NCBI RefSeq assembly: GCF_003966695.1
Contig: NZ_AP018828.1
Location: 836,001-900,000, forward strand
Direction of reading: 5' to 3'
Length of the DNA stretch: 64,000 bases
Source of the DNA: Asticcacaulis excentricus
Lineage (GTDB): Bacteria > Pseudomonadota > Alphaproteobacteria > Caulobacterales > Caulobacteraceae
Under the pieces are notes generated by a model, which saw nothing but the letters and a program-made list of their open reading frames with translations, did no database searches and was not told the DNA's origin. Both the position numbers and the translations under genes were made by a program. Position 1 is the first letter of the stretch, and every line of letters begins with the position of its first letter. This document shows positions 5,648 to 7,587 of the stretch, one piece after another.

Positions 5648-6706
<1,059 letters not shown>

Positions 6707-6770
6707 TTACGTCTCCTGCGTCAAAAAGGTTTGGCGGGAGGCGCGAGGTGTTGGGTTTTCTGTGAAACCG

Positions 6771-6850
6771 GCCCCGCGCGTTCCGCGGGGCTTCGTCCAG
6801 ATGCCTTGGCTTACACCGTCAGCACGACCGGACCGGCCCCGCGAAGCGGG
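6771..6850 (-). promoter_or_regulatory. Candidate threonine attenuator of asd (mutually exclusive stems)
   Basis: On the minus strand four short segments can pair in alternative ways. Segment 1 CCCGC (6850-6846) pairs with segment 2 GCGGG (within 6843-6836). Segment 2, CGCGGGGC, also pairs over eight bases with segment 3 GCCCCGCG (6791-6784). Segment 3 pairs equally well with segment 4 CGCGGGGC (6778-6771) across a five-base loop. This is the 1:2, 2:3, 3:4 layout of a classical attenuator. Segment 1 overlaps the Thr codons of the leader frame, so a ribosome stalled there would free segment 2 for the antiterminator. The weak point is the terminator stem: it is followed by GGTTTC only, not a long U-tract. 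Confidence 0.6.
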
Positions 6851-6890
6851 TCGGCTTGGTAGTGGCTTTGGTGGTGGTCGTCTGGAACAT
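6819..6890 (-). CDS. Threonine-rich leader peptide upstream of asd
   Basis: A 23-codon frame beginning ATG TTC CAG and ending TGC TGA. It encodes MFQTTTTKATTKPT followed by RFAGPVRSC. Seven of 23 residues are threonine, four of them consecutive (codons 4-7), with others at 10, 11 and 14. A weak purine-rich stretch (AAAGG) lies about ten bases ahead of the ATG. The frame lies 116 bases upstream of asd, which makes a threonine precursor, and its Thr codons sit directly before and on segment 1 of the competing stems. The expected role is as a translation sensor of charged tRNA-Thr, with no function of the peptide itself. This is inference from layout. Confidence 0.6.
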   Translation of the reverse strand: MFQTTTTKATTKPTRFAGPVRSC

Positions 6891-6921
6891 GAAAGCGCCT
6901 TTACCGGGAATGAGGGGTTTT

Positions 6922-6951
6922 GTAAACCGCTCTTATACCTCTCCGGTTTAC
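6922..6951. promoter_or_regulatory. Inverted repeat around a possible asd promoter
   Basis: A perfect 8-base inverted repeat, GTAAACCG and CGGTTTAC, is separated by 14 bases. On the minus strand the spacer includes TATAAG (6937-6932), a plausible -10 element for the asd leader transcript, which would start about 40 bases ahead of the leader ATG. The placement suggests an operator overlapping a promoter in the divergent asd/pentapeptide interval. The binding protein is unknown. Confidence 0.4.
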
Positions 6952-7014
6952 GGAGGGGAGCGCGCAGGCCCCGATCTTGCTTAAGAAAAGCTAAACCACA
7001 AGAGGTGTCCCATC

Positions 7015-7500
7015 ATGAAACGCATCGCTCTGGCCGTAGCCGCGCTTTCGCTGTTTGCCCTTCCCGCTTCGGCGCAAAACCCTGTCCAGATCAGCCGCGC
7101 CGGTTCGGGCGCGTCCTGCCCCGGCTGCAACCTGTTTCAGGCCGATTTTTCCGGTAAGACGCTGAAAGGCAAGAACTTCGCCGGGGCGCGCCTGCGTCAG
7201 GCGGACCTGTCGAGCGGCGTTTTCAACGGCACGAGCTTTGCGGGCGGAGACCTGCGTGACCTTAACGGGTTTGGCTCCTTGTTCGGCCATGCCAATTTCT
7301 CGCGCACCAATCTGACCAACGCCAATTTCGTCGGGGCCTATCTCGAAGGGGCCAATTTTGCGGGCGCCAATCTGAGCGGCGTCAACTTTTCCGGGGCCGA
7401 GATGGCGTCGGCGCGCGGCATCACCCAGCGCATGATGGATCAGGCCTGCGGCGATAAGACGACCGTGGCTCCGAAGGGTATCCGCGTTCCGGTGTGCTGA
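7015..7500 (+). CDS. Secreted pentapeptide-repeat protein
   Basis: A 161-residue protein with a clear Sec signal peptide (KRIALAVAALSLFALPASAQ) and therefore likely periplasmic. From about residue 45 to 135 it is a run of pentapeptide repeats of the A(D/N)xxx type, for example LFQADFSGKTLKGKNFAGA and ANFVGAYLEGANFAGANL, which should fold into a right-handed quadrilateral beta-helix. Cysteines occur in a CPGC pair after the signal peptide and near the C-terminus (ACGD, VPVC), possibly forming disulfides that cap the helix. An AAGAGGTG ribosome-binding site precedes the start. The molecular role of such periplasmic proteins is unknown. Confidence 0.85.
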   Translation: MKRIALAVAALSLFALPASAQNPVQISRAGSGASCPGCNLFQADFSGKTLKGKNFAGARLRQADLSSGVFNGTSFAGGDLRDLNGFGSLFGHANFSRTNLTNANFVGAYLEGANFAGANLSGVNFSGAEMASARGITQRMMDQACGDKTTVAPKGIRVPVC

Positions 7501-7544: not shown

Positions 7545-7587
7545 TCAAAAGAAAAGCCTGCCGGTTTTCGGCAGGCTTTTCTTTTGA
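7545..7587. terminator. Strong bidirectional intrinsic terminator
   Basis: A perfect 19-base-pair stem running from TCAAAAGAAAAGCCTGCCG to its complement, around a 5-base loop. It has A-rich and T-rich flanks on both sides, so it can stop transcription from both the pentapeptide gene (+) and aspS (-). Two further short GC hairpins flank it at 7514-7532 (TTGGGGCC/GGCCCCAA) and 7601-7621 (TGTGGGGTC/GACCCCACA). Confidence 0.9.

Follow-up and report, generated by a model that had tools for sequence, protein, structure and literature searches.

The gene for aspartate-semialdehyde dehydrogenase (asd) lies on the minus strand of the window (the whole stretch of 64,000 nucleotides that was analysed), and its identity is clear from two protein models (479 bits for NF011456 PRK14874, cut-off 223; 422 bits for TIGR01296 asd_B, cut-off 324). 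It is preceded by a small open reading frame rich in threonine codons and by a chain of RNA segments, most of which have more than one possible partner. The original prediction placed a threonine attenuator at 6771-6890; the feature in fact reaches past these limits on both sides, with a promoter at 6926-6898 and two further segments at 6748-6709. Its parts, in the order of transcription, are as follows.

6898 to 6926, minus strand: promoter called from sequence, -35 TTTACA (6926-6921), 17-nt spacer, -10 TAAAGG (6903-6898).
6819 to 6890, minus strand: leader ORF of 23 codons, MFQTTTTKATTKPTRFAGPVRSC and a stop; putative control codons Thr and Lys, joined by Ile and Met in relatives.
6846 to 6856, minus strand: segment 1, AGCCGACCCGC, leader codons 12-15; pairs with segment 2.
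6820 to 6843, minus strand: segment 2, core CGCGGGGC (6843-6836) plus part 2b, GGUCCGG...; pairs with segment 1 or 3.
6784 to 6809, minus strand: segment 3, part 3b CUGGAC...GAA plus core GCCCCGCG (6791-6784); pairs with segment 2 or 4.
6771 to 6779, minus strand: segment 4, GCGCGGGGC, followed by CGGUUUCACAG without a U-tract; pairs with segment 3 or 5.
6754 to 6769, minus strand: small hairpin GGUUU/AAACC between segments 4 and 5, assessed by permutation of own versus swapped halves.
6737 to 6748, minus strand: segment 5, CCUCGCGCCUCC, in which CCUCGCGC pairs with segment 4 and GCGCCUCC with the Shine-Dalgarno sequence.
6709 to 6717, minus strand: segment 6, AGGAGACGU, the asd Shine-Dalgarno sequence with a conserved 3' extension; pairs with segment 5.
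5648 to 6703, minus strand: asd, 351 amino acids, the leader-bearing copy of two asd genes in the genome.

The leader-bearing asd is located on contig C2; the second copy (G000:C1:1750751-1751728) is about 51% identical to it. Two asd genes (E <= 1e-30) are present in all eight leader-bearing genomes that were examined for copy number. We saw no Thr/Lys leader in 18 paralog loci that we inspected (L013-L030); by eye, the DNA before many of them resembles the end of a response-regulator receiver gene. On the other side of the window's leader, a divergent gene on the plus strand (7015-7500) encodes a small, secreted-looking pentapeptide-repeat protein (Pfam PF00805), followed by what looks by eye like an inverted repeat at about 7547-7586.

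The frame of 23 codons with seven threonines, four of them consecutive, is indeed present at 6890-6819, with Thr at codons 4-7, 10, 11 and 14; the distance to asd, given originally as 116 bases, is 115 nt between the leader stop, which ends at 6819, and the asd start at 6703. The leader is not, as had been proposed, a threonine-only one, since it also has Lys at codons 8 and 12, and relatives combine Thr, Lys, Ile and Met codons (in the window's own leader Met occurs at the start only, so that the Ile/Met signal is a property of the relatives). Threonine richness by itself was rejected as evidence, since 3 of the 491 nested ATG/GTG frames of 18-30 codons in the window also have at least seven Thr.

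As for the RNA, CGCGGGGC occurs twice (6843-6836 and 6778-6771) and GCCCCGCG only once (6791-6784), so that 2:3 and 3:4 are mutually exclusive; the exclusive pairings 1:2, 2:3 and 3:4 were correctly foreseen. Threonine codons 10-14 had been thought to cover segment 1; the segment corresponds to codons 12-15, with Thr 14 inside it and Thr 10-11 just upstream. The 1:2 pairing is a small hairpin within the leader ORF, 2:3 a long helix that begins in the last part of the ORF and continues past its stop, and 3:4 a hairpin GCCCCGC/GCGGGGC. What the original prediction lacked is the promoter that makes the leader probably leaderless, and segments 5 and 6, which bring the asd Shine-Dalgarno sequence into the switch: 4:5 is formed by GCGCGGGG/CC[U/C]CGCGC, and 5:6 by GCGCCUCC/GGAGACG[C/U], with the Shine-Dalgarno sequence within segment 6. 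The best arms for 4:5 and 5:6 share at least two bases of segment 5 in 81 of 82 family members, and at least three in 12 of 13 sequences from other lineages (the exception is L145, where they do not overlap); the two helices therefore exclude each other.

Folding of 6704-6890 gives z = -2.3, with 3 of 200 shuffles equally good. RNAalifold, run on 44 sequences with no structure supplied, returns 2:3 together with 4:5; its covariation term is small (-0.25 kcal/mol, the cores being invariant), and 1 of 14 pairs is changed on both sides. When the structure 1:2 + 3:4 + 5:6 is supplied, 96.6% of the cells are paired, versus 42-55% when it is slid along the alignment. One pair that belongs to 2:3 alone (x-y) does not form in 13 of 82 sequences.

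The decisive point in favour of the original observation is conservation. The asd subfamily of the window occurs in 12 of 25 genomes of the genus (at least 74% identity) and in 84 of 299 genomes of the family, spread over 4 of 22 genera (E <= 1e-100). Upstream DNA was available for 83 of these 84 loci, and 82 could be parsed; the two left out are that of G129, whose asd contig has no upstream sequence and whose leader is on another contig, and L077 (G235:C75), which was not parsed. At L077, leader segments 2b and 3 abut the asd coding sequence, and segments 4-6 are gone together with the start codon, which may be a natural deletion or an assembly artefact. Each of the 82 parsed relatives has a leader ORF, 23-27 codons long, whose start lies 162-189 nt upstream of asd, and each keeps the segments. 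Conservation of the small frame and of the stems, the test originally suggested for close relatives, is thus found there and in distant relatives too, and the remark that such a leader would be unusual in this lineage is wrong in the sense that it stands before this asd subfamily in every one of the 82 parsed loci, which come from four genera of the family. Carriers of the exact pattern (47 DNA stretches) include Caulobacter segnis, C. vibrioides, C. ginsengisoli, Phenylobacterium kunshanense, Brevundimonas vesicularis, B. nasdae and B. aurantiaca; with Caulobacter and Brevundimonas among them, the element can be tested in Caulobacter.

Sequence and spacing of the leaders are constrained as well. 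The best stretch of 15 residues contains 6 to 11 Thr, Lys, Ile or Met (initial Met counted), and these four amino acids make up 58.6% of residues 2-15 in the 82 leaders versus 13.2% of Asd itself (32 loci). The GGGG of segment 2 lies exactly 51 nt from the start codon in 73 of 82 loci. In these 73 leaders the share of Thr/Lys/Ile/Met at positions 6, 7, 9, 10, 12, 13 and 14 is 93, 90, 96, 99, 100, 88 and 93%, respectively, and at most 10% at positions 4, 11, 15 and 16; codon 12 is AAA in 68 of the 73. For Ile and Lys the leaders prefer codons that are rare in asd, with the reservation that the loci are related and the counts not independent: ATT to ATC is 21 : 4 in leaders and 47 : 390 in asd (32 loci), and AAA to AAG is 50 : 14 and 29 : 334. 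The bias persists over 29 spread representatives (ATT 37, ATC 14; AAA 43, AAG 7). Threonine codons show no clear preference in the leaders (ACC versus the rest, p 0.08).

The promoter position would place the transcription start near 6890, on the first base of the leader's ATG. In the 82 loci a -35-like element, TTTAC in 75 relatives and TTG in 7, has its first base 35-38 nt upstream of where the leader ORF starts, and a TA dinucleotide is present in the -10 zone of all 82 (a lax test); a generic sigma-70 scan of 6600-7100 did not flag the promoter. With this spacing in 82 loci, transcription should begin at the first codon of the leader or right beside it, and the leader ORF is probably leaderless. 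This is plausible in view of the 375 leaderless mRNAs mapped in C. crescentus (PMC4117421) and of the leaderless trp leader described for S. meliloti (PMC10117765). According to the same C. crescentus data, a Shine-Dalgarno sequence precedes just 24.6% of the coding sequences (PMC4117421), which makes the conserved AGGAGACGC before asd worthy of attention.

Covariation was assessed by joining the 5' arm of every lineage to its natural 3' arm or to one taken from a different lineage, in permutations on representatives (16, 33, 9 or 10 sequences) that were chosen by hand to spread over the lineages. In 16 deep lineages, swapped arms do as well as the natural ones in 41 of 5000 permutations for 1:2, in 1 of 5000 for 2:3 (0 of 5000 with 33 representatives), in 5 of 5000 for the small hairpin between segments 4 and 5, and in 347 of 5000 for 4:5, whose arms are nearly invariant. 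Negative-control arm pairs gave 2459 and 1433 of 5000 in the same lineages, which is not significant, and one reached 181 of 5000 with the 33 representatives. Within the family there is no net covariation of 5:6 (3269 of 5000 swaps equally good, 16 lineages). Across lineages, with one sequence each (9), 4:5 gives 5 and 5:6 gives 99 of 20000 permutations; with ten sequences retrieved by the RNA model built from the family (R1) or by the Asd protein, the figures are 0 and 31 of 20000 (one of the ten, L173, is on the Asd protein search list and is also matched by R2, a second model that includes 2:3 and 4:5). The helices 1:2, 2:3 and 4:5 therefore covary, as does 5:6 between families.

Individual lineages illustrate how the segments change in concert. 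In f2, segments 2, 3 and 4 shift jointly from GCGGGGC, GCCCCGC and GCGGGGC to GCGGGAC, GUCCCGC and GCGGGAC, and in f3 segments 4, 5 and 6 shift jointly from GCGCGGGG, CCCCGCGC and GGAGACGC to AUGCGGGG, [U/C]CCCGCAU and GGAGAUGC. Downstream of KTT, f44 and L171 retain the RNA but read the 3' half of the leader one base out of frame with the Caulobacteraceae form, so that it is the RNA, and not the peptide, that is conserved there.

The element is not confined to close relatives. In its own genome R1 finds one strong copy (E 3e-12; the next match has E 9.9), and across the order it finds copies in 59 of 398 genomes, two further families included. Fifteen of these loci were fetched, and asd is downstream in all fifteen; in 14 it aligns with most of the window protein at 41-73% identity (the other, L148, runs off its contig, and its match covers 30 residues). 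In L143-L146, from genus g7 of the same family, the leader stands before an asd that is just 41-46% identical. R2 has matches in 73 of 398 genomes of the order and 12 of 385 genomes of the class. Among 20 more loci fetched with it, asd is directly downstream in ten (L160-L166, L171, L173 and L177; 42-72% identity), and the leaders of all ten carry Thr/Lys codons, though L173 is poorer in them. Ten weak matches at the level of the order were fetched, leaving out G079, G435, G487, G123:C17, G509, G555, G467, G397 and G375, as well as the overlaps on the opposite strand; L172, L174, L175 and L178, among the weak matches, were rejected as chance-like or overlapping other features by eye. Finally, a sample of the class gave 135 asd matches, of which 109 upstream regions were examined (that of L260 has 44 bases only). 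A strict Thr/Lys/Ile/Met criterion is passed by 13 of the 109, versus 30 of 2180 resampled sequences; about 11 of the 13 are convincing and L332 is doubtful. The T/K/I/M match at L249 is, judging by its motif, presumably the tail of leuB. L227, L228 and L230, from the same asd subfamily (71-73%), have no such leader, and L229 has a weak Thr/Lys leader with a terminator.

What could such a leader be for? Threonine, lysine, isoleucine and methionine are all made from aspartate semialdehyde, the product of Asd, which stands at the first shared branch point of their synthesis; the asd gene of E. coli is repressed by several of these end products and, to our knowledge, a typical attenuator has been reported to be absent there. 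We think it probable, with due reserve, that the element is a ribosome-mediated attenuator of asd that responds to the charging of the aspartate-family tRNAs and works chiefly by controlling the initiation of translation; we infer the translation of the leader, stalling as the signal, the direction of control and an output that is translational and not transcriptional. The best reading is a six-segment relay, with 1:2, 3:4 and 5:6 in the off state and 2:3 and 4:5 in the on state. Transcription would begin with the start codon of the leader itself. As long as charged tRNA (for Thr and Lys, plus Ile and Met in relatives) is plentiful, the ribosome would reach the leader stop and cover segment 2; 3:4 would form, segment 5 would pair with the Shine-Dalgarno sequence of segment 6, and asd translation would be off. 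A ribosome stalled by a control codon over segment 1 would let 2:3 form and leave segment 4 free to pair with segment 5, so that the Shine-Dalgarno sequence would be released at least in part and asd turned on. If the leader were not translated, 1:2, 3:4 and 5:6 would form and asd would again be off.

The choice between a translational and a transcriptional output depends on what follows the 3:4 stem. A run of at least four T in the 10 nt after it is absent in 81 of 82 family members and present in one, and a generic scan of 6600-7100 found no terminator-like site. The missing long U-tract had been correctly noted in the original prediction; intrinsic termination at 3:4 has to be rejected in the window's lineage in view of these counts; the leader-peptide attenuator as a kind stands, without threonine exclusivity and without that terminator. 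Some relatives do have a U-tract terminator at 3:4 (L141, L142, L165, L166 and relatives in genus g27), as do, by eye, L236, L261, L295, L317, L331, L328 and L229 elsewhere in the class, and the true terminators of f3 indicate that control of transcription exists in the wider group.

Sequestors of the Shine-Dalgarno sequence with a stability of at least -9 kcal/mol are present in 75 of 82 family members, versus 87 of 820 shuffles. They are found in 1 of 16 leaderless paralogs with a Shine-Dalgarno core (18 loci) and in 0 of 22 asd genes of the class that lack a recognised leader, a rough control in which 22 of 44 parsed pieces had the core and the starts were picked by script on truncated pieces, some of them wrongly (L229, L261); the corresponding group with a leader has one usable member, at -4.2. 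In f2 the sequestor is less stable (-7.4 to -8.6). U-tract and sequestor occur together in L141 and L142, L166 has a long U-tract, and L165 has a long, perfect U-tract and no sequestor (-3.0 kcal/mol), a hint that either output can take the place of the other; the spectrum among relatives runs from the terminator alone to the sequestor alone.

Equilibrium folding is less generous to the relay. The Shine-Dalgarno core is paired at every ribosome position (median P(unpaired) 0.00-0.05). In the full RNA, with the ribosome edge just before segment 2, the probabilities are 0.82 for 2:3, 0.56 for 4:5 and 0.69 for 5:6, and with the ribosome past segment 2 they are about 0.9 for 3:4, about 0.1 for 4:5 and 0.8-0.9 for 5:6. 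Modelled stalling lowers the energy needed to open the Shine-Dalgarno sequence from 7.0 to 5.4-6.1 kcal/mol (shuffles 4.5-4.7); the drop exceeds 1.5 kcal/mol at the best boundary in 37 of 82 sequences and in 62 of 410 shuffles, and the window's own sequence has none (6.3-6.4 stalled versus 6.6 off). In a transcript cut just before the Shine-Dalgarno sequence, 4:5 is the favoured helix at equilibrium in the 'stop' state as well (mean 0.74), so that the off state would need kinetic formation and persistence of 3:4, or competition from the Shine-Dalgarno arm. Such models support only a modest switch, and none for the window's own sequence; since they argue against a clean switch, we hold the translational reading to be no better than probable.

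Classical attenuation of transcription, in which 3:4 would terminate without a recognisable U-tract (weakly or with the help of NusA) and 2:3 would be the antiterminator, is the competitor closest to the original prediction, and relatives with the same kind of leader, some with an excellent terminator at 3:4 (L141, L142, L165 and L166), speak in its favour. We nevertheless consider it unlikely for the window: besides the near absence of T-runs in the family, it leaves unexplained why segment 5 is complementary both to segment 4 and to the Shine-Dalgarno sequence. Segment 5 is transcribed after 3:4, so that the conserved 4:5 helix cannot affect termination there and makes sense only for control of translation; and it is L165, with its perfect U-tract, that lacks the sequestor. 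A mixed output, with the relay controlling asd translation and Rho cutting the untranslated asd mRNA so that mRNA and protein both change, fits all the anatomy, and coupling between translation and Rho is a general phenomenon; we give it a rather small chance, as nothing that we observed requires Rho.

Two further explanations concern the leader itself. Its RNA or peptide could also act in trans, like the rnTrpL sRNA and the peTrpL peptide of S. meliloti, which would explain part of the conservation; leaderless attenuator RNAs with trans roles are indeed described in the class (PMC10117765, PMC7298713, in the parts seen). This seems to us quite improbable, given that f44 and L171 keep the RNA with a frame shift in the 3' half of the peptide, and that the window's lineage has no terminator to release an sRNA. 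That the leader is nothing but a chance T-rich frame in a GC-rich region, devoid of function, can practically be dismissed: such frames do arise in the window, as the count given above indicates, but they would not recur in every parsed relative with fixed spacing, codon bias and covariation. The translational relay remains the reading that we prefer.

The relay is also seen before genes other than asd, namely hisS (L179) and genes for GNAT acetyltransferases (L167-L169 and L176); these loci were retrieved with R2, which contains 2:3 and 4:5, so that only their 5:6 is independent evidence (L170 was not resolved by the script). L167, L168 and L169 have related leader peptides (NPSGCNGAALAGR, NPSGCNAATLAGR and LPSGLGCNATLAGR) and the same six-segment layout before the acetyltransferase gene, identified by Pfam in L167 and L169 and by likeness to its neighbours in L168. 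L176 has a small ORF, 'MKLAIASARRRTTFRWGG', a 4:5 helix of -28 kcal/mol and a 5:6 of -10.3 before another gene of the GNAT family. His-rich leaders stand before hisS in L170 (HHHAHSH), L179 (HHHGHHH, with a relay to the Shine-Dalgarno sequence) and L338 (HHHHHH). A general leader before hisS in close relatives was rejected: L338 is the one His-rich leader among 12 loci viewed, a 13th locus, L348, being left out because it is cut at a contig end. The same holds for trpS, with one convincing Trp leader with a terminator (L362) among 14 loci; the other W-containing frames upstream of trpS look, by eye, like out-of-frame parts of upstream genes. L362, before the second trpS of G299, has a short ORF ending in AFIWWRSF, then a GC hairpin and a U-tract, and is a candidate Trp attenuator.

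A broader proposal, to be taken as tentative and somewhat short of probable, is that Alphaproteobacteria possess a general class of amino-acid leader-peptide attenuators with a translational output through a six-segment relay to the Shine-Dalgarno sequence, in which the asd leader integrates several end products of the aspartate pathway and terminator-only, terminator-plus-sequestor and sequestor-only forms coexist as a record of change between transcriptional and translational control. The asd leader peptide seems to read several end products at once, and related leaders with different output modules offer a route to study how transcriptional and translational attenuators are converted into each other.

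How does the element compare with known systems? No Rfam family matches the window at threshold (a microRNA model alone appears below it, 25.7 bits versus 71), nor do the loci of 9 relatives reach any gathering score, so that membership in an Rfam family, Thr_leader included, was rejected. In the thr operon of enteric bacteria, the attenuator thrL has a leader peptide rich in Thr (and Ile) and mutually exclusive hairpins. The asd leader resembles it in its codon-rich ORF, its exclusive 2:3 and 3:4 stems and the presence downstream of a gene of the same pathway; it differs in that its lineage has no U-tract terminator, that the controlled gene is asd, that Lys codons are used too, that the extra segments 5 and 6 involve the Shine-Dalgarno sequence, and that it matches no Rfam model. 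The translational attenuators of the erm type (ermA, ermK) have six segments and a stall caused by a drug. The asd element likewise is a chain of alternative pairings that ends at the Shine-Dalgarno sequence, with the difference that its stall would come from uncharged tRNAs of a biosynthetic pathway.

The attenuators of Rfam cover His, Leu, Thr and Trp, according to the part of PMC3766115 available to us. The cys leader peptides of Actinobacteria are amino acid leaders without a conserved terminator, like that of asd; in the passages seen, Rho is suggested for cys, and sequestration of the Shine-Dalgarno sequence is reported for ileS T-boxes and not for leader peptides (PMC1262725). No description of the asd element was found in the open-access full texts searched. 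The trp attenuator of S. meliloti (trpL, rnTrpL) shares with asd the leaderless leader ORF and the logic of the stalling ribosome but, as described in the excerpts consulted, has an intrinsic terminator and responds to a single amino acid (PMC7298713, PMC10117765). The closest parallel is SEP5 of Sinorhizobium meliloti, a small ORF located in the 5' UTR of an 'aspartate dehydrogenase' gene; it contains six Thr and three Lys codons, was proposed to encode a leader peptide, and is described as translated and as conserved only in Sinorhizobium (PMC10117765, in the passage seen). Judging by its name, the gene downstream is probably asd, and the two leaders would then be alike in being Thr/Lys-rich and in standing before it; no RNA mechanism is given for SEP5 in that passage. 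Leader control of a probable asd has thus been suggested once before in the class (Sinorhizobium, PMC10117765, as far as its passage on SEP5 goes), and what is new, as far as our searches of the open-access literature go, is the relay of six segments and a leader that seems to read several end products at once.
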